From Bryobacteraceae bacterium (GTDB lineage: Bacteria; Acidobacteriota; Terriglobia; Bryobacterales; Bryobacteraceae): a DNA stretch of 64,000 bases. How positions within the stretch are numbered: the stretch's first letter is position 1; each line of letters opens with the position of its first letter. The notes beneath the pieces were generated by a model. It had not been told where the DNA came from. It worked only from the letters and a program-made list of their open reading frames with translations, and ran no database searches. The position numbers and the translations under genes were made by a program. Shown here one piece after another: positions 9,002-34,572 of this stretch. Location of the stretch: NCBI GenBank assembly GCA_026002875.1, contig BPGE01000001.1, positions 4,402,001 to 4,466,000 on the forward strand, written 5' to 3'.

Positions 9002-9173
9002 GCCCGTGCGTTCCCCCGCCGCCATGAAGCATCCCCGCCTCTCTGCATCGCCCTGCCCCGCTTCCGCTCCATCTCCTCGAAAACAAAAAAGAAATTTTTT
9101 GTCCTTCTCTTGTGACAGGCCCCCTTCCCTCCCCCCTTCTGCATCGGATACCGTAAAAGGGGATCAGCCCCGT

Positions 9174-10085: not shown

Positions 10086-10130
10086 CCGTAACTTCAGGAA
10101 CCCTCCCCTCTGCCGCAGCGTCTAAAACAG

Positions 10131-10586
10131 ATGAAGGCGCGGGCGATGAAATATTGGGGCTTCCTCCTCGCCAAGCTCCTCGCCGTTTTCGCGGTGCTGC
10201 GCCTCCTTTGGCTCCTCATCGAAACCCTCCTCCCCGAGCCGGAAATCTTCCTCTACACCCGTCTCCCGCGCTTCCCCAACGACCTGCCCTGGACCGCCGC
10301 CATTCTGCTCTTCTGGCTTCTGTCTCTCGGTCTCATCGCCCTCGTCATCTGGGATCAGCGCACCCGTTGCCGCACCTGCCTGCGCCGCCTCCGCATGCCC
10401 GTCGAAAGCGGAAGCTGGAGCCGCGCCACTCTGTTCGCCCCGCCCCGCAAGTCTCTCATCTGCCCCTATGGCCACGGCACTCTGGATGAACCCGTCGCGC
10501 ATGTCTCCGCTCAGCCTCCCACGGAGTGGCACGCCCACGGCGACATCTGGAAAGAACTCGAAGCCCTCGACAGGGACCGCCAATAG
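10131..10586 (+). CDS. Small membrane protein with zinc-ribbon-like cysteines
   Basis: The product has 151 residues. Two predicted membrane segments (about residues 10-30 and 55-75) are followed by a soluble C-terminal part. A CRTCLRR pair and a later CPYGHG could bind a metal. The protein is not recognised. It may start at the ATG at 10131 or at the ATG at 10146, which has a better-placed GAAGG. It lies between proline dehydrogenase and the penicillin-binding protein with short gaps on both sides, and its job is unknown. Confidence 0.6.
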   Translation: MKARAMKYWGFLLAKLLAVFAVLRLLWLLIETLLPEPEIFLYTRLPRFPNDLPWTAAILLFWLLSLGLIALVIWDQRTRCRTCLRRLRMPVESGSWSRATLFAPPRKSLICPYGHGTLDEPVAHVSAQPPTEWHAHGDIWKELEALDRDRQ

Positions 10587-10627
10587 CCTCATGCCACAAT
10601 AGAAAGTGACCCTTAAGGGAGACCTCT

Positions 10628-13114
10628 GTGTCCGCCAAGTCCGGCAAGAAACCCGAACGCCGCCTCTTCCGCAGCGCGTTCCTCAAAATCGGCGTCGCGA
10701 TTCTTTCCTTCTTCTTCGTTCTTCTCTCCGTCTCCTTCGCCGCCGTCTGGATCCACTACTCCCGCCTCGTCGACGAAAAGCTGCAGAAGGGACCTTTCAC
10801 GCAGACCGCCCAGCTCTATGCGGCGCCTGAGCCCGTCAGCGTCGGCGACTCGCTCTCCCAGGACGAACTCGTCGAGGCGCTCCGCCGCCGCGGCTACACC
10901 ACTGACCGCTCCAACCGCGTCGGCTGGTACCACCTGCGCTCCGGCGGAGTCGAAATCTTCCCCGGCGTCGACGCCTATCCCCATTCCGAACCCGGCGTCA
11001 TCTTTCTCGAGAACAACACCGTCGTCCGCATTGTCTCCAGCCGCGACCATACCGAACGCCCCCGCTACTTCCTCGACCCCGAACTCGTCACCAACCTCCA
11101 TGACCGCCGCCGCGAAAAGCGGCGCCTCGTCCGTTTCAACGACATCCCCAAAGTCCTCGTCCACGCCGTCATCTCCGCCGAAGACAAGCGCTTCTTCGAT
11201 CACGCCGGCTTCGATCCCATCCGCATCATCCGCACCGCCTGGGTCGACGTCACCCAGAACCGCCGCTACGGCGCTTCCACCATCTCCATGCAGCTCGCGC
11301 GCCTCCTCTGGCTCTCCCGCGACAAGACCTGGAAGCGCAAGGCGCTCGAAGCCCTCATCACTCTCCAGCTCGAGCAGAAGCTGACCAAGGAACAGATCTT
11401 CGAGTACTACGCCAACCAGGTCGACCTCGGCCAGCGCAAGAGCTTCGCCATCCACGGCTTCGGCGAAGCCGCCCAGGTCTACTTCGGCAAGGACATCCGG
11501 GACCTGCGCGTCGAGGAGGCCGCGCTCCTCGCCGGCCTCATCCAGCGCCCCAACTATCTCAACCCCTACCGCCACCCGGAACGCGCCATCCAGCGCCGCA
11601 ACGTCGTTCTCGGCCTCATGCGCGACAACGGCTTCATCACCGAACTCCAGTACCTTGAAGCCGTCAAGGCCCCGCTCAGGCTCGCCGAAGGCGGCGAAGA
11701 GTCCACCGACGCCCCCTACTTCGTCGACCTCGCCTACGACGAACTCCAGGAGAACTTCGCCGACCTCGACTTCCAGGCCAACTCCTACCGCATCTACACG
11801 ACCCTCGACATGAAGCTCCAGCGCGACGCCCTCGAGGCCGTCCGCATCGGCATCCAGGAGGTCGACGCCCAGTTGGCCAAAATGCGCCGCAAGTACCCCG
11901 AGCCCCAGGTCGCCCTCGTCTGCCTCGATCCTTACACCGCCGAGGTCAAGGCCCTCATCGGCGGCCGCAGCTACGCCGCCAGCCAGCTCAACCGCGCCCT
12001 CGCCCGCCGTCAGCCCGGCTCCGCCTTCAAGCCCTTTGTCTACGCCGCCGCCCTCAACACCGCCCTCGAAGGCCGCGAACCCGTCATCACCCCGGTCACG
12101 CACGTCGTCGACGAGCCCACGACGTTCTACTACGACGACAGGGAATACACTCCCAACAACTTCCGCCAGCAGTTCAACGGCCCCGTCACCCTGCGTTTCG
12201 CGCTCTCGAAATCCCTCAACATCCCCACCGTCAAGTTCGCTGAAATGGCCGGTTACCAGGCCGTCGCAGACCTCGCGGAAGCCGCTGGACTCAAAGGCGT
12301 CAAGCCCACTCCCGCCCTCGCTCTCGGCGCCTATGAGGTGACCCCGCTCGACATCGCCGGCGCCTACACCGTGTTTGCCAATCAGGGCACCTGGGTGCAG
12401 CGGAACCTCATCCGGGAGATCCGCTCCGCAGACGGCAACCTCATCCACCAGTACCAGCCTGTCACCCGCCAGGTTCTCGATCCCCGCATCGCGTACATGG
12501 TCGTCAACCTCATGGAAGAGGTTCTCCGCTCCGGCACCGGAGCCGGCGTCCGCTCCCGCGGCTTCCTCCTGCCCGCCGCCGGAAAGACCGGCACCTCCCA
12601 CGACGCCTGGTTTGCCGGCTTCACCTCCAAGCTCCTCTGCGTCGTCTGGGTCGGCTTCGATGACAACCAGGAGCTCCCCCTCGAAGGCGCGAAGGCTGCC
12701 CTGCCTGTTTGGGCTGAGTTCATGAAGCGCGCCCACCGTCACCGCGAATACCGCGGCGTCCAGCCTTTCTCTCCTCCCGATGGCATCGCCATCGTCGACG
12801 TCGATCCCCTCAGCGGCCAGCTCGCCACTGCCTCCTGCCCGAAGGCCATCCAGGAAGTCTTCCTCGCCGGCACCCAGCCCGTCGAACTCTGCCGCCTCCA
12901 CGGCGGCGGCCAGACCTGGATCAGCAGTTGGGACTCCGACTCCGCATCACCCTCTTCATCCTCTCCCGCCACGGCCCGCGTCCAGCCGCCTCCGCAGCGT
13001 CAGACCCCCGTCAGAACGGAATCTCCTCAGCCCACCGCGTCGCCTCAGCCGCCCGCCCCGGCCGGGGAACCAAAACGCGGTTTTTGGAACCGGATTCGGG
13101 CTATATTTAGGTAG
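10628..13114 (+). CDS. Bifunctional class A penicillin-binding protein (PBP1-type)
   Basis: This 828-residue inner-membrane enzyme polymerises and cross-links peptidoglycan. It starts at GTG 10628 after a GGGAG site. A membrane anchor lies at about residues 20-43. The glycosyltransferase (GT51) domain shows ISAEDKRFFDHAGFDP near residue 187 and GASTISMQLAR near 214. The transpeptidase domain shows the catalytic SAFK near 464, SKSLN near 527 and GKTGTS near 652. The C-terminus is Pro/Ser-rich and disordered. The layout, with an extra domain between the anchor and GT51, resembles PBP1B. The active-site motifs are intact. Confidence 0.92.
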   Translation: MSAKSGKKPERRLFRSAFLKIGVAILSFFFVLLSVSFAAVWIHYSRLVDEKLQKGPFTQTAQLYAAPEPVSVGDSLSQDELVEALRRRGYTTDRSNRVGWYHLRSGGVEIFPGVDAYPHSEPGVIFLENNTVVRIVSSRDHTERPRYFLDPELVTNLHDRRREKRRLVRFNDIPKVLVHAVISAEDKRFFDHAGFDPIRIIRTAWVDVTQNRRYGASTISMQLARLLWLSRDKTWKRKALEALITLQLEQKLTKEQIFEYYANQVDLGQRKSFAIHGFGEAAQVYFGKDIRDLRVEEAALLAGLIQRPNYLNPYRHPERAIQRRNVVLGLMRDNGFITELQYLEAVKAPLRLAEGGEESTDAPYFVDLAYDELQENFADLDFQANSYRIYTTLDMKLQRDALEAVRIGIQEVDAQLAKMRRKYPEPQVALVCLDPYTAEVKALIGGRSYAASQLNRALARRQPGSAFKPFVYAAALNTALEGREPVITPVTHVVDEPTTFYYDDREYTPNNFRQQFNGPVTLRFALSKSLNIPTVKFAEMAGYQAVADLAEAAGLKGVKPTPALALGAYEVTPLDIAGAYTVFANQGTWVQRNLIREIRSADGNLIHQYQPVTRQVLDPRIAYMVVNLMEEVLRSGTGAGVRSRGFLLPAAGKTGTSHDAWFAGFTSKLLCVVWVGFDDNQELPLEGAKAALPVWAEFMKRAHRHREYRGVQPFSPPDGIAIVDVDPLSGQLATASCPKAIQEVFLAGTQPVELCRLHGGGQTWISSWDSDSASPSSSSPATARVQPPPQRQTPVRTESPQPTASPQPPAPAGEPKRGFWNRIRAIFR

Positions 13115-13136
13115 GCCCCGGGGCCAGGAGGTTCTT

Positions 13137-13904
13137 ATGCGAACCTGGATTGCCATCCTTTTCTTCTCCGCCTCCCTGCCGGCTGCTCAGGCCCCCCAGC
13201 CGGCTTCTGCGGAATCAGTTCAGCCGCCTCAGGAAGCCGAGGCCCCCAAGCCTCAGATCACCCCGGAGATGCGCGGCGATATCTACATGGCCCGCCGCAT
13301 GTACCGCGAGGCCATCGATGTCTACCGCTCCATCCAGCCCCCCACCGCAGTCATCCTCAACAAAATCGGAATTGCCTACCAGCAGCTCGGCGATCTGGAA
13401 TCGGCAAGGAAAATGTACGAGCGCGCCATCAAGCTCAACCGGAAATACGCCGAGGCCATTAACAATCTCGGAACGGTTCACTACGCCCGCAAAAGCTACC
13501 GCAGGGCCATCTCCCAGTACAGAAAGGCCCTGTCCCTCAACCCGGACTCCGCTTCCATCTACTCCAACCTCGGCACCGCTTACTTCGCCCGGAAAGATTA
13601 TCGGCGCGCCATCGAATGCTACGAAAAAGCCCTCGCGATCGACCCCGACGTCTTCGAGCGCCGCGGCACGTCCGGCGTCCTCCTGCAGGAACGCAGCGTC
13701 GAGGAGCGCGCGAAATTCCACTATCATCTCGCCAAGGTCTACGCCAAGAACGGCCGCAATGATCTCGCCCTCTTCTACATCCGGAAATCCCTTGAAGAAG
13801 GATTCAAAGAGAAGCGGCGCTATCTGGAAGAAAGCGAGTTCGCCGAGCTGCGCAAGCTTCCGGAATTCGAAGAGCTGATGAAAATCGAACCCCGTGTCCT
13901 GTAA
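13137..13904 (+). CDS. Exported TPR protein
   Basis: The product has 255 residues and a signal peptide (MRTWIAILFFSASLPAAQ). It then has at least three consecutive tetratricopeptide units, for example AEAINNLGTVHYARKSYRRA and SIYSNLGTAYFARKDYRRA, at about residues 75-190. TPRs usually mediate protein-protein contacts; a periplasmic scaffold role is likely. An AGGAGG site six bases before the ATG fixes the start. The next TPR gene starts inside its last codons, so the two are probably co-translated. Confidence 0.8.
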   Translation: MRTWIAILFFSASLPAAQAPQPASAESVQPPQEAEAPKPQITPEMRGDIYMARRMYREAIDVYRSIQPPTAVILNKIGIAYQQLGDLESARKMYERAIKLNRKYAEAINNLGTVHYARKSYRRAISQYRKALSLNPDSASIYSNLGTAYFARKDYRRAIECYEKALAIDPDVFERRGTSGVLLQERSVEERAKFHYHLAKVYAKNGRNDLALFYIRKSLEEGFKEKRRYLEESEFAELRKLPEFEELMKIEPRVL

Positions 13905-15750
13905 ACCTGGTATTTTTCTCGCCGCCGCGCTCGCCTCGGCCCTCCTTCATCCCGCCTGTTCCCGCAGCGGACAGCCCTCTCCGCAACTCCGCCGCCTTGC
14001 CGTGCTCCCAGTCGACGATCAGTCGCCTTCCGGCTCTCACGCCTGGCTCGCCCGGCTTCTCTCCTTCGCCCTCGTCCGCCAGATCGAAGGCGCTCCGCGA
14101 CTGCTCGCCGCCGAAGTCCGCAACGCCGCCGACTTCTCCGGCGCCACGCATCAGCTTGCCGGCTTCCTCTCTCTCCGCGGCGGCAACCTCGAAGCCCACC
14201 TCTTCCTTTACGAACTCCCCTCTCACAAGCTCGTCCGGCACGAGGTGATCGCGCGCCCCTCGGCTGACTGGTTGTCCCTCCTCTCCGGCGCCGCGCGTTT
14301 CGTCGCCTCCGCGCTCGAGCCTTCCGCCTCTCTCCAGCCCATCTCCGTCAAAAAGGAATCCGCCGCCCGCAGCCTCGCCGAAGCCCTTTCCGCCTCCACG
14401 CCTGAGCAGTCCCAGGCTGCCTTCCGCGCCGCCGCCGAAGACGACCCCTCCTGCGGCTGGTGCTGGCTCGGCTGGGCTGAAACCGCCCTGCGCCGCGGGC
14501 TGCGCGAGGAGGCTCTCCAGGCGGTGGGCGCCTCCAGCCTCGATGGCAGGCAGATCGATCCCCTCTCCCGCAGCCGCCTGGATCTCATCGCCGCGCAACT
14601 TCGTTCCGACCCCCGTGCAATCGCCGCAGCCCAGCGGGCGATCGCCGCCGCTGCTCCCGGCGACCCCGTCGCGCAGGGGCGCCTCGCCGAAGTCCTCGTC
14701 GCCAGCCGCCAGTTCGATCAGGCTGCCGCCGCTCTCCAGCGCGCCATCTCCATCGATCCCCAGAACGGCCTCTACTGGAACTCTCTCGCCTACGCCCGCG
14801 CCTATTCTGGCCGCTTCGATGAAGCCCTCAAAGCCGCCGCCCGCTACGCCGAGCTCGACTCCTCCCCGAACCCCGCCGACAGCCGCGGCGAGATCCTCAT
14901 GATGGCCGGGCGCTTCACCGAAGCCTATCAGGCGTTCGAAGAAAGCTATCGCAGGGACCGCAACTTCAACAGCGGCGCCGCCATGGAAAAAGCCGCCCTC
15001 TGCTGGATGCTCCACGGAGACCCCCGCCGCGCCTCCGAAGCCATCGCCCGCTTCCTTCAGGACCGCGCCCAAACCGGCGACCGCCTCATCGAGCTCCGCC
15101 GGGCGCGCTGGGAGTTCCTCATTGGCCAGTCCGCCCTCGCCCGCCAGCGGTGGACCAGCCTCGCCGGAGACGCCACAAGCCCCATCCATCTCCTGGCCAT
15201 TTCCATGCTCGCCCTGCGCCAGGCGTTCGCCGATCCCGCCTCCGCCGCCTCCATCCTCCGTTCCCGTCCGCCCGCCCGCGACCCGATGAACGAACTCTTC
15301 CTCGCATACGCTGCCGCCGCTTCCGATCCCTCCTTCCCGGACCAGATCCGGGACGAGCGCCTGAAACTCGAGCTCCGCGCCCTCTCCCTCACCGCCCGCC
15401 GGGATTGGTCGCGCGCCGCCGATGCCTGGAAAACGGTCATCGACCGCTCCCCGGGAGGAACGGACAGCCCATACCGTGAACTCCGCGCTTTCTGCCTCGT
15501 CCAGACGGGCAACACCCGGCAGGCTTCCGAAGCCCTCGGCAACTCGTGGCCGCTCCTCAGCCAGGGCCAGTGGGAGTTCTACGATTTCCTCGTCTACCCG
15601 AACGCGCTCTTCACCCGCGCCGAAATCGCCCGCGCCGCAGGAAAGACCGATGAAGCCCGCCGCCTCTACGACATCTTCCTCCAGTTCGCGGGCGACCGCC
15701 CGGATCTCGCCCCGCAGATCGCCCGCGCCCGCTCCGCCGCCCGCCTCTGA
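13894..15750 (+). CDS. TPR-containing probable lipoprotein or exported protein
   Basis: The product has 618 residues. It starts with GTG 13894, which overlaps the previous gene by 11 bases. The N-terminus is signal-like (KPGIFLAAALASALLHPACS) with a Cys at the end of the hydrophobic stretch, an imperfect lipobox. Most of the rest is helical TPR-like repeats, clearest around residues 270-330 (RQFDQAAAALQRAISIDPQ). No catalytic domain is seen. It probably works with the preceding TPR protein in the envelope; the precise role is unknown. Confidence 0.7.
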   Translation: MSCKPGIFLAAALASALLHPACSRSGQPSPQLRRLAVLPVDDQSPSGSHAWLARLLSFALVRQIEGAPRLLAAEVRNAADFSGATHQLAGFLSLRGGNLEAHLFLYELPSHKLVRHEVIARPSADWLSLLSGAARFVASALEPSASLQPISVKKESAARSLAEALSASTPEQSQAAFRAAAEDDPSCGWCWLGWAETALRRGLREEALQAVGASSLDGRQIDPLSRSRLDLIAAQLRSDPRAIAAAQRAIAAAAPGDPVAQGRLAEVLVASRQFDQAAAALQRAISIDPQNGLYWNSLAYARAYSGRFDEALKAAARYAELDSSPNPADSRGEILMMAGRFTEAYQAFEESYRRDRNFNSGAAMEKAALCWMLHGDPRRASEAIARFLQDRAQTGDRLIELRRARWEFLIGQSALARQRWTSLAGDATSPIHLLAISMLALRQAFADPASAASILRSRPPARDPMNELFLAYAAAASDPSFPDQIRDERLKLELRALSLTARRDWSRAADAWKTVIDRSPGGTDSPYRELRAFCLVQTGNTRQASEALGNSWPLLSQGQWEFYDFLVYPNALFTRAEIARAAGKTDEARRLYDIFLQFAGDRPDLAPQIARARSAARL

Positions 15751-15879
15751 TCCCTTCCTGGAAGCCTCGCCACGGCCAGGCTTTGCATTCCAGCGGCACC
15801 CCCCGCCAGTCCTTGTGACAGGTTTCCCGCCGCGGCCCGCGCTTCCCCTGCCGTGCTATGTTCTCATCCAGGGGCCTGG

Positions 15880-16545
15880 GTGCGAGACAGCCTGCGGAAA
15901 CTCGAGCACGACATCGTTCACTGCCGGCGCTGCCCCCGTCTTCTCGCCTGGTGCGCCCAGGTCGCGCGTGAAAAGCGCCGTGCGTACAGGGACTGGGACT
16001 ACTGGGGCCGCCCCGTCCCCGGTTTCGGCGATCCTGAGGCCCGCGTCTACATCCTCGGTCTCGCCCCGGGCGCTCACGGCGCCAACCGCACCGGCCGCGT
16101 CTTCACCGGCGACAGTTCCGGCGACTGGCTCTACCGCGCCCTCTGGGAAACCGGCTTCGCCAATCAGCCCGAAAGCACCCGCCCCGGCGACGGCCTCGCT
16201 CTCTCCGGCGCATGGATCGGCGCCAGCGTCCGCTGCGCCCCGCCAGCTAACAAACCGCTCCCGGAAGAATTCGCCCGCTGCCGCGAATATGTCGCGCGCG
16301 AACTCGCCCTGCTGAAATCCGTCCGGGTCGTCGTCGCCCTCGGCCGCCTCGCCCACGACAACTTCGTCGCCCTGCAAGGCCTGCCCCGCAACGCCTTCCG
16401 CTTCTCCCACGGCGCCGTGCACGAGGCCGGGTCTCTCATCCTGCTCGACTCATACCACCCCAGCCGCCAGAACACCCAGACTGGAAAGCTCACCCGCGAG
16501 ATGTTGCGCGGCATCTTCCGCGATGCAAGGAGACTCTCCCGATGA
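15880..16545 (+). CDS. Uracil-DNA glycosylase, family 5 (UDGb-like)
   Basis: The enzyme removes uracil and related deaminated bases from DNA. The four Fe-S cysteines are visible: HCRRCPRL near the N-terminus and RCAPPANKPLPEEFARC in the middle. Other family motifs are YWGRPVPGFGD, LGLAPGAHGANRTGR (active-site loop) and SYHPSRQNTQTGKLT near the end. The UDGb-type AHG motif, where other families carry a polar catalytic residue, supports family 5. GTG 15880 is chosen as start; GTG 15853 is in frame and would add nine residues. It overlaps the TenA-like gene by four bases (ATGA). Confidence 0.85.
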   Translation: MRDSLRKLEHDIVHCRRCPRLLAWCAQVAREKRRAYRDWDYWGRPVPGFGDPEARVYILGLAPGAHGANRTGRVFTGDSSGDWLYRALWETGFANQPESTRPGDGLALSGAWIGASVRCAPPANKPLPEEFARCREYVARELALLKSVRVVVALGRLAHDNFVALQGLPRNAFRFSHGAVHEAGSLILLDSYHPSRQNTQTGKLTREMLRGIFRDARRLSR

Positions 16546-17267
16546 AACGCATTCTTCTTCTTCTGTTCCTGTCCGCCGTTTCCCTCGCCGCGCAGCCCGG
16601 CGGCTTTGCCGCCGAATGCCGCCGTCACGCCGATCCCGTCTGGCGGAAAACCGTGGACCATCCTTTCCTCAGAGCCCTGTCCGATGGCACTCTGCCCCGC
16701 GAGAAATTCCGTTTCTATCTCGAACAGGATCTCCTGTACCTGCGCGAGTTCTCCCGCCTCCTGCTCGAGCTCGCCGCCAAAGCTCCGCATCCCGATCAGG
16801 CGCGCACGCTCGCGCGCCATGCCTCCGAGGCCATCGCTGAAGAAGCAACCCTTCACGCCTCCATCCTCGGGCTGCAGGAGCAACACCGGCAGTCCGGCGA
16901 GTTTTCCTTCTCCATCGCCCCGTCCAATGCGGCTTACATCAACCATCTCCGCGCCGCTGTCGGACGCGGCTCGTTCCTCGAGGGCATGGCCGCCATGCTT
17001 CCCTGCTACTGGATCTACATGGACGCCGGAAAAGCCCTGGCCGGAAAAGGCTCCCCCGTCCCCGAATACCAGCAGTGGATTCGCCAGTATTCCAGCCCGG
17101 ATTACGAAAAAAGCGTGTCGGAAGCCATCGCCATCTTCAATGCCGCCGCCGCCGGCGCTTCTCCAGACATCCGCGCCCGCGCCCTCTCGGCCTTCGAGCG
17201 CAGCGCCCGCTACGAGTGGATGTTCTGGGACATGGCCTGGCGCATGGAGAAATGGCCCCCTGAGTGA
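16542..17267 (+). CDS. TenA/thiaminase II-like protein with signal peptide
   Basis: The product has 241 residues. The mature part shows the TenA fold: HPFLRALSDGTLPREKFRFY, then the conserved LPCYWIYMDAG segment with the presumed nucleophile Cys, and a C-terminal SARYEWMFWDMAWRME. TenA enzymes hydrolyse thiamin breakdown products or related pyrimidines and are normally cytosolic. Here an obvious export signal (MKRILLLLFLSAVSLAAQ) precedes the domain, which is unusual. The gene overlaps the glycosylase by ATGA and ends about 120 bases before the tandem repeat array. Confidence 0.75.
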   Translation: MKRILLLLFLSAVSLAAQPGGFAAECRRHADPVWRKTVDHPFLRALSDGTLPREKFRFYLEQDLLYLREFSRLLLELAAKAPHPDQARTLARHASEAIAEEATLHASILGLQEQHRQSGEFSFSIAPSNAAYINHLRAAVGRGSFLEGMAAMLPCYWIYMDAGKALAGKGSPVPEYQQWIRQYSSPDYEKSVSEAIAIFNAAAAGASPDIRARALSAFERSARYEWMFWDMAWRMEKWPPE

Positions 17268-17384
17268 CCATTGACAACGAAAATCCCCGCGCGTTCCATG
17301 CGGGTTCCGCGCCGCGAGCCAAGGGCGCGAAGCGCCCGGGAGCGAGCGGTCCCAGCTGTGCCCCGCGGCGCCCTCTCCTGCGGG

Positions 17385-18595
17385 TTTCCCCTCGCGCTTG
17401 CGCGAGGGCTGCATCCCAACCGTGCCCCACGCGCGGCCCCCCGGGTTTCCCCTCGCGCTTGCGCGAGGGCTGCATCCCAACCGTGCCCCACTCGCCCCCT
17501 CCCGGGTTTCCCCTCGCGCTTGCGCGAGGGCTGCATCCCAACCGTGCCCCACTCGCCCCCCCCGGGTTTCCCCTCGCGCTTGCGCGAGGGCTGCATCCCA
17601 ACTGTGCCCCACTCGCGGCCTCCCGGGTTTCCCCTCGCGCTTGCGCGAGGGCTGCATCCCAACTGTGCCCCACTCGCCCCCTCCCGGGTTTCCCCTCGGC
17701 CTTAGCCGAGGGCTGCATCCCAACCGTGCCCCACTCGCCCCCTCCCGGGTTTCCCCTCGGCCTTAGCCGAGGGCTGCATCCCAACTGTGCCCCCCTCGCG
17801 CTCTCCTGCGGGTTTCCCCTCGCGCTTGCGCGAGGGCTGCATCCCAACTGTGCCCCCCTCGCGCTCTCCTGCGGGTTTCCCCTCGCGCTTGCGCGAGGGC
17901 TGCATCCCAACTGTGCCCCCACTCGCGGCCCCCCCGGGGTTTCCACTCGCGCTTGCGCGAGGGCTGCATCCCAACTGTGCCCCACTCGCGGCCCCTCGGA
18001 TTTCCCCTCGGCCTTGGCCGAGGGCTGCATCCCAACCGTGCCCCACTCGCCCCCCCCGGGTTTCCCCTCGGCCTTGGCCGAGGGCTGCATCCCAACCGTG
18101 CCCCACTCGCCCCCTCCCGGGTTTCCCCTCGCGCTTGCGCGAGGGCTGCATCCCAACCGTGCCCCACTCGCCCCCCCGGGTTTCCCCTCGCGCTTGCGCG
18201 AGGGCTGCATCCCAACTGTGCCCCCACTCGCGGCCCCCCGGGTTTCCCCTCGCGCTTGCGCGAGGGCTGCATCCCAACCGTGCCCCACTCGTCCCCTCCC
18301 GGGTTTCCCCTCGCGCTTGCGCGAGGGCTGCATCCCAACTGTGCCCCCACTCGCGGCCCCCCCGGGGTTTCCCCTCGCGCTTGCGCGAGGGCTGCATCCC
18401 AACCGTGCCCCCACTCGCGGCCCCCCCGGGGTTTCCCCTCGCGCTTGCGCGAGGGCTGCATCCCAACTGTGCCCCCCTCGCGCTCTCCTGCGGGTTTCCA
18501 CTCGCGCTTGCGCGAGGGCTGCATCCCAACTGTGCCCCACTCGCGGCCCCTCGGATTTCCCCTCGGCCTTGGCCGAGGGCTGCATCCCAACCGTG
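17385..18595 (+). repeat. Array of about 20 tandem 60-bp units with palindromic cores
   Basis: Each unit contains a perfect inverted repeat, the conserved string GGGCTGCATCCCAAC, then YGTGCCCC and a variable C/G-rich stretch of about 12-16 bases ending in GGGTTTCC. Unit length is about 58-61 bp. I count 20 copies of the GCTGCATCCC core. Fifteen copies have the palindrome CTCGCGCTTGCGCGAG and five have CTCGGCCTTAGCCGAG or CTCGGCCTTGGCCGAG; both arms change together, so the stem is kept. A degenerate unit precedes the array at about 17350. The array lies between two plus-strand genes. Because the period is close to a multiple of three, all six frames stay open, so I do not treat it as coding. 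Confidence 0.9.
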
Positions 18596-18686
18596 TCGGA
18601 CAGAGCGCCACAGCGGACACCCCCTTTACTGCCCCCTGAGCGCGCGATTCCCGTGGCAGCAGACCGCAGCGTCTTAAAATGAAAGT

Positions 18687-18935
18687 ATGGCACGCGGCTG
18701 GGAAAGCAAGTCCGTGGAGTCGCAAATCGAAGATGCGGCTGCACGGCGCGCCAGAGCCGGGGCCGCTCCCCAGAAACAGGCCGACACTCTCCAGCAGGCC
18801 AGACGCCGCGCTCTCGAACTCGACCTCGTGCGCGTGCGCGGGGAGCTGAGCCGTTGCTCCAACGCGCGCTTTCGCGCCCTGCTGGAAGCCGAGCTCCGCC
18901 ACCTCGAGGCCGAGCTGCGCAAGTACTCCTGCTGA
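18687..18935 (+). CDS. Small charged coiled-coil protein
   Basis: The 82-residue product starts MARGWESKSVESQIEDAAAR. It is almost wholly alpha-helical and rich in Arg, Glu and Ala. The MARGWESKSVE start looks like a small conserved hypothetical protein family I associate with Acidobacteriota, though I cannot verify this here. A TAAAAT -10-like sequence lies about 12 bases upstream. It follows the tandem array by about 90 bases and precedes the permease gene. Function unknown. Confidence 0.6.
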   Translation: MARGWESKSVESQIEDAAARRARAGAAPQKQADTLQQARRRALELDLVRVRGELSRCSNARFRALLEAELRHLEAELRKYSC

Positions 18936-18990
18936 CGCGCCGCAGCCGGCCTGCCGCCCTTCAGGGGGGATTCTGTATCCTGTCAGGGAA

Positions 18991-20298
18991 ATGCGCGCCG
19001 CGCTCGAATCCTATTTCCAGTTCCGTGAGTTGGGCACAAACTGGCGCACCGAGGTGCTGGCCGGGTGCACGACGTTCGTCGCCATGGCCTACATCATCTT
19101 CGTCAATCCTTCCATCCTCGGCGAAGCCGGAATGCCCCAGCAGGCTGTCACCGCTGCCACCTGCCTCGCCTCCGCCATCGGCTGCTTCCTCATGGGCGCG
19201 CTCGCCCGCTATCCCATCGCCCTCGCCCCCGGCATGGGCCTCAACGCCTATTTCACCTACACCGTCTGCCTCGGCCTCGGCGTCCCCTGGCAGACGGCGC
19301 TCGGCGCGGTGTTCATCAGCGGGATCATCTTTCTTCTCCTCGTCGCCGCCGGCATCCGCCAGCTGATTCTCGAGTCCATCCCCCGCGAGCTCTACAGCGC
19401 CGTCGCCGTCGGCATCGGCCTCTTCATCGCCCTTATCGGCATGCGCAACGCCGGCATCATCCAGGCGAGCCCCGCCACCATGGTCAGCCTCGGCAACCTC
19501 CGCGATCCGAAAACCCTGCTCGCTCTTGGCGGCCTCCTGCTGATCTGCGCCCTGCTCGTGCGCGGCGTCCGCGCCGCCATGCTCATCGGCATTCTCGCTA
19601 CGGCAGGCGCCGGAGCGGCCCTTGGATTTTTCGACTGGACCCCTCAGGCCTATTCGCCGAAAGCCCTCGGCGCCACCTGGCTCGCCATGGACGTCCGCGG
19701 AGCTCTTCAGCTCGGCCTGCTTGAGATCATCTTCGTCTTCCTCTTCGTCGACGTGTTCGACAACGTCGGCACCCTCGTCGCCGTGGGCACCCGCGCCGGG
19801 CTCATCGGTCCGGATGGACGCATCCCGCGCGTCAACCGCATCCTCGCCTCCGCCGCCGCAGCCTCCTCCATCGGCGCCGCCTGCGGCACCTCCACCGTCG
19901 TCAGCTACATCGAAAGCGCCGCCGGCGTGGTCGCCGGAGGACGCACCGGCGTCGCCGCCATCGTGTGCGGCATTCTTTTCCTCGTCGCGCTCGTCATCGC
20001 CCCGCTGTTCGGCGCAGTCCCGGCCCAGGCCACCGCCCCCGCGCTCATCGTCGTCGGCGCGCTCATGCTCGTCCACACGGAGGAAATCGAGTGGACGAAG
20101 CCCGCCACCTCCATCCCCGCTTTCCTCACGCTCGCCGCCATCCCCATGACCTTCAGCATCGCCAACGGCCTCGCCTTCGGCTTCACCGCCCACACGATGC
20201 TGCGCGTGCTCTCGGGAGAGTGGCGCCGCGTCCACTGGCTCGTCTACCTCCTCACGGCCCTGTTCCTGTTACGCTTTTTCTATCTGGGCCAGGGCTGA
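18991..20298 (+). CDS. NCS2 family purine permease (AzgA-like)
   Basis: The product has 435 residues and 12 or more predicted membrane segments. The start, ELGTNWRTEVLAGCTTFVAM, then AYIIFVNPSILGEAGMP and FLMGALARYPIALAPGMGLN, is characteristic of the AzgA branch, which imports adenine, guanine or hypoxanthine with protons. The motif VFLFVDVFDNVGTLVAVG carries the substrate-site acidic residues, and ACGTSTVVSYIESAAGV is also conserved. It stands seven bases before a nucleosidase gene that would liberate adenine, which supports purine salvage. Confidence 0.88.
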   Translation: MRAALESYFQFRELGTNWRTEVLAGCTTFVAMAYIIFVNPSILGEAGMPQQAVTAATCLASAIGCFLMGALARYPIALAPGMGLNAYFTYTVCLGLGVPWQTALGAVFISGIIFLLLVAAGIRQLILESIPRELYSAVAVGIGLFIALIGMRNAGIIQASPATMVSLGNLRDPKTLLALGGLLLICALLVRGVRAAMLIGILATAGAGAALGFFDWTPQAYSPKALGATWLAMDVRGALQLGLLEIIFVFLFVDVFDNVGTLVAVGTRAGLIGPDGRIPRVNRILASAAAASSIGAACGTSTVVSYIESAAGVVAGGRTGVAAIVCGILFLVALVIAPLFGAVPAQATAPALIVVGALMLVHTEEIEWTKPATSIPAFLTLAAIPMTFSIANGLAFGFTAHTMLRVLSGEWRRVHWLVYLLTALFLLRFFYLGQG

Positions 20299-20304
20299 CC
20301 CGCC

Positions 20305-21090
20305 ATGCAGAGAAGAACATTTCTTGCCAGCTTTGTTTCTCTCGCCGCCCCGGCCCGCCCTTCTGGGCCGCTTCTCGTCCAGGGCGCCGTCGATGGCGAG
20401 CTCGGCCCCCTGCTTGACGCCCTGCGCCCGCGCGCCCGCGAGTCCCGCATTGGCGGCTGGAGCTTCTGGCGCGGCCGCATCGGCCGGCTCGACGTCGTCG
20501 TCAGCCGCACCGGCGTCGGTCCCGTCAACGCCGCCGCTTCCACCGCTCTCGCCATCCGCGAGTTCCGCCCGTGGGCTGTCATCAATCAGGGCACCGCCGG
20601 CGGCCACAACCGCATCCTCAAGCTCTGGGACATCGTCCTTGGCGAGAAAACCACCGACTACTCCGCCTTCGAGTCCCCCCACGGCGATGACGGCGCCGGC
20701 ATCGACGTCAGCGCGTGGAAGCCCAAGCCGCACGTCATCCGTCTGCCCGATGGCCAGCCCGTGACCTGCCCCTCATTTCCGGGCGACGCCGAACTTCTTC
20801 GCGCCGCCGAAAAAATCCCCAACCCCCGCGGCCGGGTCCTCCGCGGCAACATCGGCTCCGCCTTCCAGTACAACCGCCAGCTCGATTACATCTCGTGGCT
20901 CCACCGCGCCTACGGCACCGACACCGAGGACATGGAGAGCGCCTTCTCTCACGGCGCCGCCATCGGCCTCGGCGTCCGCTTCCTCGCCATCCGCATGGTC
21001 TCAGACACCGAGTGGGAGCACCCCACGTTCGAGCGCATCGCCGGCCGCTATTGCGCCGAGTTCGTCCTCGAGCTCGTCCGCAGCCTCTGA
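20305..21090 (+). CDS. Exported MTA/SAH nucleosidase-like protein
   Basis: The product has 261 residues of the purine nucleoside phosphorylase/MTA nucleosidase fold. The catalytic set is visible: Glu in VQGAVDGELG near the start, DTEDMESAF (binding Glu) and RMVSDTEW with the catalytic Asp near residue 235. The N-terminus MQRRTFLASFVSLAAPARP has a twin-arginine motif and hydrophobic stretch, so the protein is probably exported, unlike ordinary MTA nucleosidases. It may hydrolyse nucleosides outside the membrane to feed adenine to the adjacent permease. Export is inferred from the N-terminus. Confidence 0.75.
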   Translation: MQRRTFLASFVSLAAPARPSGPLLVQGAVDGELGPLLDALRPRARESRIGGWSFWRGRIGRLDVVVSRTGVGPVNAAASTALAIREFRPWAVINQGTAGGHNRILKLWDIVLGEKTTDYSAFESPHGDDGAGIDVSAWKPKPHVIRLPDGQPVTCPSFPGDAELLRAAEKIPNPRGRVLRGNIGSAFQYNRQLDYISWLHRAYGTDTEDMESAFSHGAAIGLGVRFLAIRMVSDTEWEHPTFERIAGRYCAEFVLELVRSL

Positions 21091-21100
21091 ACCGCCTCGG

Positions 21101-21646
21101 CTACGAGCGGTCGATCACCAGATTGTTCGTCACCGAAAACACGCCCTTCACGCCGTTGGCCCGGATGCCGGCGATGTTGCGGTCGCCCTCGTTGGCCACG
21201 TTGCCTTCCAGCGTCACATGCCCGTTCTTCACAATGATGTGAATCGGAGGCACGGCCCGCAGGGCGTACCGGTTCAGCGCCGGATGCCGGTAGATCGCGT
21301 TGAACACCGCCAGGCGGATCCGGTCGTCGTTGGGCGACAGGGGCAGCACTTCGATCTGGTTGGTCACGTTCTCCACGCCTTCGATCGCGCGGACCACGTT
21401 CTCCGCCTCCGACTTCAGGTTCGGACGCGTCACATACCCGGTCAGTGTGACGTTGTAGCCGTCCAGCCTGAACTGGAGCAGGTCGAAGACCCCGTACCAC
21501 GGCAGCGTGATCAGCTCGCGCCGGATCTCCCGTTCCAGCCGTTCGCGCGCTCGTTTGGGAATGGCCTGCTGGCCCTGTGCCATCGTCATGCCGCCTGCAC
21601 AGCATCCGGCGAGCAGCATGCCTCTGCGCGACCACTTGTCTTTCAT
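21101..21646 (-). CDS. BON-domain exported protein
   Basis: The product has 181 residues. The ATG at 21646 follows an AAAGGAGG site, which rules out the ATG further upstream. The twin-arginine-like signal DKWSRRGMLLAGCCAGG is followed by two BON domains (about residues 35-105 and 110-180). These show paired GYNVTLTGYVTRPNLKSEAE and GHVTLEGNVANEGDRN cores. BON domains bind membranes or act in osmotic-shock protection. It converges with the nucleosidase gene. Confidence 0.82.
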   Translation of the reverse strand: MKDKWSRRGMLLAGCCAGGMTMAQGQQAIPKRARERLEREIRRELITLPWYGVFDLLQFRLDGYNVTLTGYVTRPNLKSEAENVVRAIEGVENVTNQIEVLPLSPNDDRIRLAVFNAIYRHPALNRYALRAVPPIHIIVKNGHVTLEGNVANEGDRNIAGIRANGVKGVFSVTNNLVIDRS

Positions 21647-21704
21647 TTCCACCTCCTTTCCCTTGAGATGAAAGCCGCGCCTCCAGGCGACCAACAGTTG
21701 GCGG

Positions 21705-23810
21705 TCACTCGATTGCCGCCACCTCGTAATCCTTCACGGCGGGCACGGTGAATTCCACCACCCTTCCCCTTTGCGAAAACCGCAACGCCTGCCCGCTGCG
21801 CAGCGCGGTCACGCGCCGCACTTTCACTTCCCGAGGCAGCTCAAAGCGCACCCGCTGCGCACCCACCGGCGAATGCCGCAGGTACACGCCGCGGTGCGCC
21901 TGCGGGTTGTTGTAGTTCAGCAGGTGCAGCGCGAATCCCGCCTCCGTCTCCCACGCAAACAGCTCCAGCAGCCCCTCGCCTTCCACCCGCACGGCTCGCC
22001 GCCCGCCCAGCGCCCACTCGACAGTGTTGAGCATCAGCCGGAGCGGATCGGGATGAAACGAGCGCCAGAACGTCCGCCCGACGTCGCCCGCGAAATACGC
22101 GCAGCGCCCGCCGCCCGCCTCGCGCAGCGCCAGCGCCGCCTCGTCCGTCCGCGGCGTCTCCGTGAACACAGCCTCGGTCGGATATCCAGGGTACGGGGGC
22201 GCCACCGTCAGCACCGGCGCGGTCTCCGACCGCACCGGCACGCGCCACTCCGCGCCCGCCAGCCACCGCGTGTTCCGGAATCCGCGCAGCGCCTCATGGT
22301 CCGCGTTCTCGATGCGCGCGTAGAACGAGTTGTAGAAACCGCGCACCCCTGTCCTCTCGCCCGTCTTGCGGATCCCGAACAGCCTCGCGAGCCCGAAGTC
22401 CGCCCGCGCCCGCCCCCGCTCGTCGTACACGCTCGTCTCGAAGTCTGCAATCACCGCCCCGCCCTGCGCCGCAAACGCCTCCACCCTGCGGCACTGTTCA
22501 TCGCTCAGCCACGCCGCATTCGGAAGAATCAGCAGCCGGTAAGGCGCAAGCGTGTCGCCGCTCAGGCCGTCCTCGTGAACAAACCCGAACAGATGCCGCC
22601 CCTCGAGCAGCGCCGCATACCAGCCCTGCACGTGCTCGCCCGCGTCGCCCTCGCCAGGGTTCGCGTAAAACGTCTGCGTCCGCTGCGGCAGCAGCAGCGC
22701 AATCTCCGCCAGATGCCGCCGGTTCACGAAGTGGGCGTTGTGCTTCGCGTGCCACTGCAGAAAGCGCCGCCCGTGCTCCTGCCAGCGCCGGTCTTCGCCC
22801 AGCCCTGTCTGTGCGCCCAGCCAGTGGTACCACACGGCCATCCCGCTCGCCGCCGTCTGCGCCATCCAGATCTCGGCTTCAGCCGCGCTCTTGGCCGCGT
22901 TCCGCCACATCGGCGACCCCGTCGACCACGCGCCCGTGACGTTCGTCATCGTGCGCCCCTTCATCACCGCCAGCGCCACGCGCCCCTGCTGCGCCGCGCC
23001 CCACACCGGCGCCGCCCCCGTCCGCCCCTGATTGTCCGCGTTGAACCAGAAGCAGTGCGGCGCCAGCCGGTGCAGGTCCACGCCCGTCCGGAACCCGCCC
23101 CCCAGATTGCCAAAGAACAGATTCTCCGCGCTCTTCTCCTTCGCAATCCGGTCGTACAGCGTCCACAGCTCGATCACCCGGTCCATGAACGCCTCGCGGA
23201 ACTCCGGCGTCCCCCGCGGCGGCAGCCGCCGGCAGGCCTCGCACCAGCACTCCGGCAGGTTCCAGTTCGGCCAGCCGTTGGCGTAGAACGCGTCGACATC
23301 GTAGCGCGCGTTCACCTCCCGCAGAATCGCCGGCGTCTGCTCGCTGAAATACGTCGAAAACATGCACGTCTGGTACAGGCCGGGCGTGCGGCTGAACGGC
23401 GGCACAGGCCGGCCCTCCCGGTCGCGCACGAACCACTCCGGATGCGCCTCCAGCGCATCCTCCCACTGCAGGTCCGGACTCAGTCGCCCGATCACGCGCA
23501 TCCCGCGCTTCTTCGCCGCCCGGACGCATTCCCCGAAGAAGTCCCGCCCGCCCAGCCACCGGCTGCGCTTGTGAAACGGAACCTCGGTCGGATAGAACGC
23601 GATCATCCCGGTGACGTTGATCTGCACCGCGTCCACCCGGCACGAAGCCCAGTAGTCAGCCCACTCCTCGACATCGGCTTCCGCAACGTCCCTTTCACTG
23701 AAATTCACCTGCCCCACCCGCCGCACCCGCTGATGCCATTCCTCCGCCGCCTTCGATGCAGCAGCCGCCATCGATGCTGCCGCCAGAAACTCCCGCCGCG
23801 TCCATTCCAT
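21705..23810 (-). CDS. Exported glycoside hydrolase-like protein (GHL6 / beta-galactosidase-trimerisation type)
   Basis: The product has 701 residues with a twin-arginine signal (MEWTRREFLAAASMAAAAS). The first 350 residues form a TIM-barrel-like region. Motifs are DAVQINVTGMIAFYPTEVPF, RGMRVIGRLSPDLQW and VDAFYANGWPNWNLPECWCE, with acidic candidates for catalysis. The region around residues 400-560 looks like the trimerisation domain of GH42-type enzymes (LPNAAWLSDEQCRRVEAFA). A small beta domain ends the protein. Activity on a polysaccharide is likely; the substrate cannot be told from sequence. It stands alone, converging with nothing downstream except the BON gene. Confidence 0.65.
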   Translation of the reverse strand: MEWTRREFLAAASMAAAASKAAEEWHQRVRRVGQVNFSERDVAEADVEEWADYWASCRVDAVQINVTGMIAFYPTEVPFHKRSRWLGGRDFFGECVRAAKKRGMRVIGRLSPDLQWEDALEAHPEWFVRDREGRPVPPFSRTPGLYQTCMFSTYFSEQTPAILREVNARYDVDAFYANGWPNWNLPECWCEACRRLPPRGTPEFREAFMDRVIELWTLYDRIAKEKSAENLFFGNLGGGFRTGVDLHRLAPHCFWFNADNQGRTGAAPVWGAAQQGRVALAVMKGRTMTNVTGAWSTGSPMWRNAAKSAAEAEIWMAQTAASGMAVWYHWLGAQTGLGEDRRWQEHGRRFLQWHAKHNAHFVNRRHLAEIALLLPQRTQTFYANPGEGDAGEHVQGWYAALLEGRHLFGFVHEDGLSGDTLAPYRLLILPNAAWLSDEQCRRVEAFAAQGGAVIADFETSVYDERGRARADFGLARLFGIRKTGERTGVRGFYNSFYARIENADHEALRGFRNTRWLAGAEWRVPVRSETAPVLTVAPPYPGYPTEAVFTETPRTDEAALALREAGGGRCAYFAGDVGRTFWRSFHPDPLRLMLNTVEWALGGRRAVRVEGEGLLELFAWETEAGFALHLLNYNNPQAHRGVYLRHSPVGAQRVRFELPREVKVRRVTALRSGQALRFSQRGRVVEFTVPAVKDYEVAAIE

Positions 23811-24191
23811 CCGGTTCGCCTCCCGGTTCGCCCCTCATTCTAGAGCAAGTCTGCCCGCCATCCCCGCCCGCCAGGGCTCCCGCCGCCGCTCTCTCTGCCC
23901 GGGCGCATGCCGCGGGGCATCCAGACCGGCTTCCGGGTTCTGGTACCAGAAGCGGCCGATCATGCCCAGCTCCATCCGCTTGTGTTCAACGGAAGCCGGA
24001 TTCGGCCCTTTGTGTTCAATCTCTTGCTCTTGCCCCGCCGGTCAGTCCCGCCGCCCCCTCCGTTTCGGAACTGGAACTATCCGGCCCTGCGCCCCGCGGT
24101 TGTAGTACACGCCCGCAGAAACGGTTCATGGTTCCGATCAGGGGCCGGCGCGATTCTTGGGTCAGACGCAGTTTTTCACAAGGGAGGAGCA
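23811..24191. other. Intergenic region between divergent hydrolase and PEP-CTERM genes
   Basis: This stretch of 381 bases holds the divergent starts. I see a GTGTTCAA direct repeat at about 23980 and 24010 and a purine-rich leader before the PEP-CTERM gene. I find no RNA gene or convincing coding frame. It presumably carries promoters in both directions, but no clear -35/-10 pair stands out. Confidence 0.4.
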
Positions 24192-24905
24192 ATGTCGTCT
24201 CTCCGTCTTTGGGTCTTGACCCTTTCACTCTGTCTTGCCGCTGCAGCAGCGGCATCTGCCACGCCGGTGTATGGAACTCCCGTTCTCCCGGCCGACTGGA
24301 CCGGGCAACGCACGCTCCTGGCTGACAACAGCGGCGGCCTGAACTCCCTCGGCGAAGGCAACAATCCTTTCCAGCCCGGCACAGGCATCTCTTGGGTCAT
24401 CTCTTTCAACAACGTCACCAACCTGTACACCTACTCGTATTCGTTCTTCGAGCCCTCCGGAAAGGACGGCGAGAAGTCCTTGGCAATGTCCCACTTCATC
24501 CTCGAACTGAGCCCCGGCTGCATCATCGAAGGCCAGTCGGACTGCATCTCCGGATTCGGGGGGAAGACCGAATTCCGCCCGGACTGGGCGGATGACGATG
24601 ACTTCGGCAAGTCCAACCCCGGGCTGCCCGGCTCTATCTACGGAGTCAAGTTCGACGAGGGGCTCTCTACCTACACCTTCGTGTCCGACCGCAACCCCGT
24701 CTGGGGCAACTTCTATGCGAAAAAGGCCAATGACGGCCTCTGGAACCTCGGGCTTGAGACTGAGTTCAGCGGATCCAGCAACACCCTGTATTTCATCCCG
24801 CGCCCGGATACGGACTCCCCCGCCGGCCAGATCCCTGAGCCCGGCACTCTCTTTCTCCTTGGCGCCGGACTGGTCGCCCTCGGCCTCATCCGCCGCCGCG
24901 CCTGA
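24192..24905 (+). CDS. PEP-CTERM sorting-signal protein
   Basis: The product has 237 residues, starting at the ATG at 24192 after GGGAGGAG. It has a signal peptide (LRLWVLTLSLCLAAAAAASA), a beta-rich exported middle with no known enzymatic motif, and a C-terminal IPEPGTLFLLGAG motif, hydrophobic stretch and Arg cluster at about residues 212-237. Such tails are recognised by exosortase, linking surface proteins to exopolysaccharide production. No exosortase is in this window. A strong terminator follows at 24927. Confidence 0.88.
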   Translation: MSSLRLWVLTLSLCLAAAAAASATPVYGTPVLPADWTGQRTLLADNSGGLNSLGEGNNPFQPGTGISWVISFNNVTNLYTYSYSFFEPSGKDGEKSLAMSHFILELSPGCIIEGQSDCISGFGGKTEFRPDWADDDDFGKSNPGLPGSIYGVKFDEGLSTYTFVSDRNPVWGNFYAKKANDGLWNLGLETEFSGSSNTLYFIPRPDTDSPAGQIPEPGTLFLLGAGLVALGLIRRRA

Positions 24906-24926
24906 GCCAGGCTTCTCCACATGACC

Positions 24927-24960
24927 AACGGGCCGGCTGTCCGCCGGCCCGTTCTGTTTT
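24927..24960 (+). terminator. Rho-independent terminator after PEP-CTERM gene
   Basis: AACGGGCCGGC (24927-24937) and GCCGGCCCGTT (24943-24953) form an 11-pair stem with a five-base loop, followed by CTGTTTTCTC. The hairpin lies 22 bases after the stop. Confidence 0.85.
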
Positions 24961-24996
24961 CTCTGGCAACAGGCAGTCTCTCAGATCTGCAACGCG

Positions 24997-25542
24997 CTAT
25001 TTCTTAGGCTTTCCCGCCTCCCGGATCGCTTTCCCCATCTCGTCCGCCACGCGCTTCGCCGTCCGGTCCAGCTCGTCCGGCATGGTCCGCTTCGGGCGCT
25101 CGTAAATCGACCACACCACCGCCCGCGATCCGCGGTGCACCAGGAAAATCGTCCCCTTGCCCCGTCCGAACGAGCTCGCCCGGTCCATCGGCGTTACTTT
25201 CAGATCCATCAGCGTTGAAGCTGGCTTGTCCGCCTCTTCCTCTTCTTTCGCCGGCTTCTCCTCCACAGGCTTCGGATGAGGATACAGCTCCTCCAGCTTG
25301 TCCTCGAACGCCTTGCCGATGCGGTCCGTCAGGATCGCATCCGCCTTCGATGGGTCCGCCACCACCTGCACCAGCCCCTGCCGTGTCAGATGATTCGCCA
25401 GATACTGGTCGAACCCGTTGGCCATCGGCAGCAGATACACATGCCGGATCTGCAGCAGTTCGCTTCCCGCGGGCTGGCCAGGTCCCGCGTCCTGCGCGCC
25501 CGCCGCCGCCATCATCGCCATCATCAACAGGGCTTGCCTCAT
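24997..25542 (-). CDS. Exported hypothetical protein
   Basis: The product has 181 residues and a signal peptide (MRQALLMMAMMAAAGAQDAG). The next part (LLPMANGFDQYLANHLTRQG, then VADPSKADAILTDRIGKAFE) resembles lipoprotein-type domains that assemble on the outer membrane. A Lys/Glu-rich linker and a compact end (GTIFLVHRGSRAVVWSIYER) follow. Specific function unknown. It is transcribed away from the glycosyltransferase cluster. Confidence 0.55.
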   Translation of the reverse strand: MRQALLMMAMMAAAGAQDAGPGQPAGSELLQIRHVYLLPMANGFDQYLANHLTRQGLVQVVADPSKADAILTDRIGKAFEDKLEELYPHPKPVEEKPAKEEEEADKPASTLMDLKVTPMDRASSFGRGKGTIFLVHRGSRAVVWSIYERPKRTMPDELDRTAKRVADEMGKAIREAGKPKK

Positions 25543-25546
25543 CGCT

Positions 25547-25578
25547 TTGCTCGCTCCCGGGTTCTGCAACTATACAAT
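25547..25578 (+). promoter_or_regulatory. Possible promoter of the polysaccharide cluster
   Basis: TTGCTC at 25547-25552 lies 18 bases from TATACA at 25571-25576 (with an alternative TACAAT at 25573). It precedes the TTG start of the first glycosyltransferase by about 30 bases. The match is moderate. Confidence 0.4.
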
Positions 25579-25609
25579 AGACGGTTTCGGGAGCCGGAAA
25601 GACGGGCGC

Positions 25610-26287: not shown

Positions 26288-26350
26288 TCCGGTGCTAGAC
26301 TGAAATTTCCCGCCTCTGTTCCCTCTTTCCTCCAGGCTGCCGCGGCCATT

Positions 26351-28335: not shown

Positions 28336-28353
28336 TTCAGGCTGCTCTTTCCC

Positions 28354-29415: not shown

Positions 29416-29423
29416 ACCGCTCC

Positions 29424-32138: not shown

Positions 32139-32150
32139 AATTCAGGCCTC

Positions 32151-34347: not shown

Positions 34348-34572
34348 TTATTGTTTTCGCCCCGGACTGCATAGGATGTTGCTAACTTCGGTTATGTTTT
34401 TTTTGATTTAGTACGAAAATCGTTGTGCTGTCTACACTTTGTGGGTCCTTTCTAGGGAGAATTGAGGTATTCTGACACGGGAACTAAGTAAGATGCCCGG
34501 GTCCTTCGGGCAGGGAAATGCGCTATTCTGTGCCCGTGACTGAATGACCTCTCGCGAGGCTCGGAGGAAGAG
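34348..34572 (+). promoter_or_regulatory. Leader of the beta-propeller gene with a duplicated promoter-like element
   Basis: This is an AT-richer 225-base leader. Two copies of GTCCTT, 17 bases, TATTCT occur at 34445-34473 and 34501-34529, 56 bases apart. The surrounding bases are partly similar, as if an element had been duplicated. The arrangement resembles tandem promoters, but the -35 and -10 hexamers match the common consensus poorly. AAGAG-type purines precede the start. Confidence 0.35.

Follow-up and report, generated by a model that had tools for sequence, protein, structure and literature searches.

What has placed 20 head-to-tail copies of a palindromic unit between two genes of an acidobacterium, and why do the two arms of the palindrome change together from copy to copy? 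The question arises in the window, by which we mean the whole 64,000-nucleotide stretch that was analysed (4402001-4466000 of a single-contig Bryobacteraceae genome of 4,863,736 bases). The comparisons described below suggest that the genome of this acidobacterium contains, by estimate, at least a hundred clusters of the same hairpin, of which the array is one, and that a rare single-strand transposase probably helps the hairpin to spread. The array can be described as a variant, amplified in tandem, of the hairpins known to accompany class 3 TnpA_Y1 genes.

A dispersed family of tandem hairpins

An initial annotation, made from the letters of the window alone, had described 20 tandem units of 60 bp. 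The number and the tandem arrangement are borne out by 20 exact copies of GAGGGCTGCATCCCAAC, which TRF resolves as one array (17381-18595). The period has to be corrected, as successive units lie 61, 61, 60, 61, 61, 61, 63, 63, 64, 61, 60, 61, 59, 62, 61, 64, 64, 63 and 61 bp apart (59-64, about 61 bp). Dinucleotide shuffles contain a mean of 0.23 and a maximum of 2 matches to GAGGGCTGCATCCCAAC, even with up to three mismatches allowed. The consensus unit reads CGGRTTTCCC-CTCGCGC-TT-GCGCGAG-GGCTGCATCCCAACYGTG and is completed by a short C-rich spacer. A different hairpin lies directly 5' of the array, and by eye several other arrays are also preceded by hairpins resembling it; a scan for the repeat found around the third class 3-like gene (see below) gave no match to it. 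Coordinates are collected in Table 1. Elsewhere in the window, the C-terminal end of the ORF at 23907-24905 looks like what we take to be a PEP-CTERM sorting tail.

Table 1. The hairpin array and the features around it, in window positions
Feature	Position	Strand	Basis
Array of 20 head-to-tail hairpin units	17385..18595	+	Sequence, TRF, core matches
Stem-loop of unit 1, CTCGCGC TT GCGCGAG	17391..17406	+	Sequence
Conserved core of unit 1, GGCTGCATCCCAACCGTG	17407..17424	+	Sequence
Different hairpin, stem GGGCGC/GCGCCC, directly 5' of the array	17306..17353	+	By eye
Stretch without counterpart in four congeners	17268..18660 (limits approximate)	.	Orthologous-site comparison
Flanking gene, TENA/THI-4/PQQC family	16542..17267	+	Pfam
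Small ORF, 82 aa, no Pfam match; start kept in four congeners	18687..18935	+	
Flanking gene, xanthine/uracil permease family	18991..20298	+	
Strand-asymmetric domain around the array	8001..36000	.	Third-position GC skew -0.35 to -0.58, 4-kb bins

The genome search for further copies of the core that the initial annotation had proposed uncovers a dispersed family: a 17-nt core with at most two mismatches matches 507 times in the genome, and the reversed-pattern control not once. The family was studied in 80 evenly spaced stretches of 20 kb (1.6 Mb, 33% of the genome), in which an 18-nt core with at most four mismatches delineates 68 clusters. Of these, 23 were dropped since their best stem had fewer than six of seven pairs; 18 of them sit at the full four mismatches and the other five are perhaps decayed units. 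The 45 clusters kept hold 280 units; scaled to the whole genome, this would be some 850 units in about 137 clusters. Fourteen are single units and 31 contain two or more, with a maximum of 23, and orientation is uniform inside every one of the 45. Unit-derived 14-mers top the list of 14-mers common to 40 sampled stretches. Only 3 of the 280 units lie inside predicted genes, compared with a coding fraction of 0.84, the predictions being those of a codon-usage script taken without comparison to an annotation. Outside this genome, matches to the unit pattern came from three genome records of two related genomes, all Bryobacteraceae, in a search from which records of the genome itself were possibly excluded.

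Growth in place and replacement of stems

The array is absent from the orthologous site in all four congeners compared, where 32-33 bp separate the stop of the flanking gene from the start of the small ORF, as against 1419 bp here. The core has no match in three of these congeners and four in the fourth, G004 (one more by another scan). At two further loci G004 has some units, but fewer. At an RNase R-type gene (RNB domain) there are 20 units by strict count, or 23 by core scan, and 4 in G004; at an ABC-transporter locus there are 23 units here, one in G004 and none in G003, G002 or G001. Since 20-23 units stand against 4 and 23 against 1 at orthologous loci, the arrays grow in place, and a single unit can become an array where it stands. 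The suggestion of the initial annotation that the locus between the two genes is mutationally unstable is upheld by these two loci and by the 20 copies against none in the window.

The flanks of the array at the RNase R-type gene differ in their identity to G004: the left flank is 99.4% identical and the right flank 92.7% (L127:5717-14475 compared with L038), while the other G004 loci compared stand at about 77-87%. Judged from these alignments, the step may possibly mark a recent exchange between species that ended at the array.

The window contains 15 units with the stem CTCGCGC/GCGCGAG, three with CTCGGCC/GGCCGAG and two with CTCGGCC/AGCCGAG, in which one pair is lost. The two palindrome versions previously described thus hold for the window, with two of its five second-type stems imperfect; they do not hold for the genome, which has four perfect types, the other two being GCCGCCC/GGGCGGC and ATCGCGC/GCGCGAT. 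Among 261 units with at least five of seven pairs in the 80 stretches, intact arms are of type CTCGCGC in 164, CTCGGCC in 45, GCCGCCC in 15 and ATCGCGC in 5, and the loop is in the majority TT (192) or TC (56). When the consensus units of the four types are folded as single-stranded DNA, each forms eight pairs and a 4-nt loop (CTTG in the consensus unit).

Two-fold symmetry is well kept: of the 261 stems, 230 pair perfectly, and a single pair is missing in 24 and two pairs in 7. The covariation statistics that had been called for point the same way, as 88% of cells pair in an overlapping set of 31 distinct stems, whereas 1000 column shuffles average 72% and never exceed 78%. The covariation is nevertheless made up of four separate arm types. 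Among the 261 units, the commonest and the second type are never combined in one stem; two units join CTCGCGC to GCGCGAT, with a mismatch at the end. Spacers are similar inside one array and unlike between arrays, and 347 pairs of units from the same array carry an identical 20 nt of spacer. In 36 same-array pairs, an identical 20-nt downstream spacer accompanies different perfect stems; these come from four arrays (16, 11, 6 in the window and 3). Different perfect stems beside identical spacers, together with the lack of units that mix the two commonest arm types, indicate that hairpins are replaced as blocks. Block replacement through conversion, template switching or the arrival of new copies would explain the pattern as well as selection does. 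With stems that change as whole blocks, and with 31 of the 261 broken, the covariation does little to prove that a hairpin function is under selection. Of the earlier reading, the symmetry remains; selection for pairing does not follow from the pattern alone, and broken stems, a case that the initial annotation had named as refuting it, occur in those 31 units.

Transposase genes among the hairpins

A gene for a Y1 HUH transposase of 149 aa lies between copies of the unit at genome positions 2167718-2168164, and also between two long units of 67 nt that differ from each other at a single base. The flanking units and long units form direct repeats on the two sides of the gene. The protein matches Pfam Y1_Tnp (PF01797) with 28.1 bits (cut-off 23), and in an NCBIfam scan the IS200 and REP-transposase models fall below their own cut-offs. 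Catalytic H69, H71 and Y129, the Y----Q signature and W108-A are present, and the H-x-H, W, Y and Q are invariant across seven homologues. Class 3 TnpA_Y1 proteins are characterized by the motifs NHVH, W[TA] and YV[VI][AENY]EQ (Quentin et al. 2018, PMC6006769); the protein here has THVH for NHVH and YVVEKQ for ..EQ, with T for N and K for E. By way of background, a unit is found within 500 bp on both sides in 3 of 953 sampled genes, and the hairpin of the second family described next in 1 of 953.

Two weaker class 3-like genes, 35% and 28% identical to the 149-aa protein (L098:2754-3128 and L099:2394-2753), lie between copies of two other repeats. The gene at 2182253 sits between copies of the GGGCTGCGACCAAGCGGTT hairpin (51 matches in the 80 stretches), and the gene at 800893 has three copies of a third, rare repeat to its left and one to its right (5 matches in the 80 stretches). 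One of the two reaches 19.7 bits for Y1_Tnp (cut-off 23) and the other has no match; neither was recovered by the Y1_Tnp search of the genome, and both rest on similarity to the 149-aa protein. A stronger Y1_Tnp gene, at 3427295, is nearest to the REP-transposase model and has no unit within about 4 kb. In a genus represented by five genomes only, Y1_Tnp genes occur in two, the same two that have units; the two Y1_Tnp genes of G004 show no unit in the 1.5-kb flanks fetched. In another member of the family, G118, homologous genes of about 40% identity lie inside a tandem hairpin family that has its own stem with matched changes in the arms (48 matches at up to three mismatches, against 2 for reversed controls). 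At one G118 locus (L101:2298-5280), three transposase-gene copies are contained in tandem units of 810 bp, which run into a 178-bp tandem hairpin array. The gene of class 3 type also has a DDE transposase gene (DDE_Tnp_1_6; L043:2899-4401) in its vicinity, and this one, too, is situated between units.

The initial annotation knew of no named element that matches. The unit does resemble the hairpins known in high copy number from class 3 TnpA_Y1 genes, which are flanked by atypical secondary structures present in about 600 copies in Solibacter usitatus (PMC6006769). In both cases an acidobacterium has a Y1 HUH gene of class 3 type, and the hairpins on the flanks of that gene are abundant in the genome. 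The differences begin with the 5' tetranucleotide foot, reported for class 3 as CnGA (PMC6006769) and here mostly CGGG (180 of 261 units, CGGA in 53), four bases from the folded stem. They extend to the long tandem arrays of uniform direction, the four stem types that can replace one another and an orientation tied to local strand asymmetry, none of which is mentioned in the class 3 section of that paper. REP, BIME and REPIN elements with their RAYTs are likewise short intergenic palindromes in hundreds of copies, with a flanking Y1 transposase and some tandem clusters (PMC3733652, PMC3116915, PMC8266576), and tandem REP arrays can be forward in one part of a genome and reverse in another (PMC3116915). 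The unit shares their intergenic position, copy number, tandem clusters and enclosed Y1 gene; unlike the RAYTs, the transposase here has motifs close to those of class 3. In none of the 261 units do the 8 nt on each side of the 7-bp stem contain a GTAG or CGTC tag or its complement, and both orientations, as in the inverted pairs of BIMEs and REPINs, are found in none of the 45 clusters. The TIRYT/TIRtron genes of Acidobacteria are also of Y1 type and flanked by long repeats, some of them repeated in the genome (PMC3733652); those repeats are inverted, whereas the ones here are direct. With the IS200/IS605 family the system shares an HUH domain with a single tyrosine and hairpin ends. Transposition as a single strand into the lagging-strand template, as in IS608 (PMC6006769), would be a further likeness. 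Unlike these elements, the units here carry no gene and amplify in place, with a bias that tracks local strand asymmetry more closely than replichore.

These comparisons make it likely, in our judgement, that a non-autonomous, REP-like mobile hairpin has spread with a transposase of class 3 type and that the array is a cluster formed by its local amplification. Mobilization by the 149-aa protein, as the arrangement of gene and repeats suggests, would begin with recognition of the single-stranded unit through its stem and conserved flank, after which the transposase would paste the unit into exposed single-stranded DNA of one strand; under this proposal pasting into one exposed strand would fix the orientation. 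The inserted unit could then multiply through slippage or unequal exchange, and conversion between units would swap whole stems, so that both arms change together. No insertion ends or target of the unit were found. Few class 3 Y1 transposases are known, and the authors who defined the class have called for experimental work on how these proteins arose and behave (PMC6006769). The genome studied here combines a gene of class 3 type, enclosed by copies of its abundant hairpin, with two ancestral-state comparisons (from 1 and 4 units to 23 and 20-23) and an orientation rule. It thereby opens to testing the idea that short hairpins are dispersed through single-strand transposition and afterwards expand into tandem arrays.

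Growth in place and the confinement of similar spacers to single arrays are also what a purely local minisatellite would display, in which a chance palindrome expanded by replication slippage, never moved, and covaried through template switching at the hairpin. We consider this unlikely, as 45 clusters across 1.6 Mb have the unit in common, the search of three congeners yielded no copy of it, and it brackets a transposase gene. The stable stem, the intergenic position and the agreement in direction with the gene on the 5' side (29 of 44) would suit an RNA or transcription element, such as an mRNA 3'-end hairpin, terminator or regulator, with its pairing under selection. Agreement with the gene on the 3' side, however, is 20 of 42; units oppose co-directional neighbours in 9 of 23 cases; a consensus scan of 17200-18750 yielded no terminator-like site; Rfam returned two sub-threshold matches (20.5 and 19.6 bits, gathering score 50); and copy number varies from 0 to 23 at orthologous sites. 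Such a function is accordingly a shade harder still to credit. BIMEs of E. coli have been proposed as sites for proteins of the gyrase, nucleoid or segregation type. A site for such a dimeric chromosome protein would account for two-fold symmetry, high copy number and a conserved core, yet it is very improbable given four unlike stem sequences and a distribution in which three of four congeners yielded no copy and the other only 4-5. Two last readings can be dismissed almost outright: a coding repeat, for which long ORFs span the array on both strands, although spacings of 59-64 bp shift the frame between units, the frames are open on both strands at once and congeners lack the array; and a CRISPR or integron attC array, which would share the short palindromic repeats and regular period, but whose spacers would be unique where these recur within arrays, and no cas family was found by Pfam among the seven neighbouring proteins.

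Orientation and local strand asymmetry

The orientation of the hairpin units follows a property of their surroundings. Third-position GC skew of the top strand varies between stretches from about -0.43 to +0.47, and the skew of genes on the two strands of one stretch agrees (r = 0.87; 68 stretches with enough sites). It forms a mosaic of 43 sign runs over the 80 sampled stretches, regardless of gene strand. Units on the plus strand lie in stretches of negative skew, and units on the minus strand in stretches of positive skew, in 42 of 45 clusters, at a skew threshold of 0.03 chosen after the mean skew was seen. Counted by stretch, the rule holds in 29 of the 30 with one orientation (two mixed ones left out); with skew taken within 4 kb of the cluster, it holds in 36 of 45. 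Where both neighbouring genes are co-directional, it is obeyed whether units run along the genes (14/14) or against them (9/9). Orientation follows the sign of local skew better than it follows replichore or gene direction. Units are present in 17 of 28 strong-skew stretches, compared with 5 of 29 weak-skew ones. The rule also applies at both unit loci of G004 and at one locus in another Bryobacteraceae genome, and 22 of 31 clusters of the second hairpin family conform to it.

Several explanations of the rule were tried and set aside. With the origin at dnaA, 30 of 45 clusters run along the leading strand (p 0.04; some link is possible), and the best of all origins scanned gives 31 of 45. A composition artefact would be seen in scrambled cores, which conform in 356 of 629 matches (57%), compared with 281 of 292 units. 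Decay of wrongly oriented copies left no clear sign: among weaker copies, those of 10-20 bits conform in 19 of 23 clusters, those of 20-25 bits in 3 of 4 clusters but 3 of 8 matches, and those of 5-10 bits in 10 of 18 clusters.

The array of the window lies in one such asymmetric domain with a skew of about -0.5 (Table 1); from about 44 kb on, the skew of the window is between -0.09 and +0.13, and in the orthologous stretches of the domain fetched from four congeners it departs from zero by no more than about 0.25. Four genes of the window domain have orthologues in both G004 and G003; at their fourfold sites with the same base in these two congeners, G has become C here in 72 of 120 cases and C has become G in 16 of 241. 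Three other genes present a varied picture, one being strongly skewed here and in G003, one negative in all four genomes compared and one strong only in G002. Because genes of G002 and G003, where no unit was found, have strong local skew, units are not required for it, and units as the cause of skew were rejected on the strong skew of congeners without them. Inversion of a strongly skewed ancestral chromosome was likewise rejected: G002 has mostly weak skew (-0.10 to +0.13 in 19 of 20 stretches, +0.52 in one), and simple inversion would not give so many strong domains.

A possible, if doubtful, interpretation is that in patches of tens of kilobases in this genus one strand is persistently exposed or re-synthesised, independently of replichore and gene direction, that silent G to C changes accumulate on that strand, and that class 3 transposases both place and keep their hairpins there in one polarity. 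If this is true, the direction of the arrays would mark a process that acts locally on single strands and is not known from bacteria. What surprises most in the analysis is that orientation is linked to local strand asymmetry, which appears new to us; regional strand asymmetry would, if confirmed, be a separate fact about bacterial chromosomes. For the Solibacter usitatus genome, numerous short repeats and an absence of strand bias have been described (PMC3174227), and the excerpted text of that paper makes no mention of a skew-oriented repeat family. Among the literature matches listed, by titles and the beginnings of abstracts, none reports local skew domains with such repeats, and a literature search for Bryobacteraceae with tandem repeats found no paper. 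Two contigs of a viral collection (L041 and L042) carry the unit, and the skew of both is near zero.
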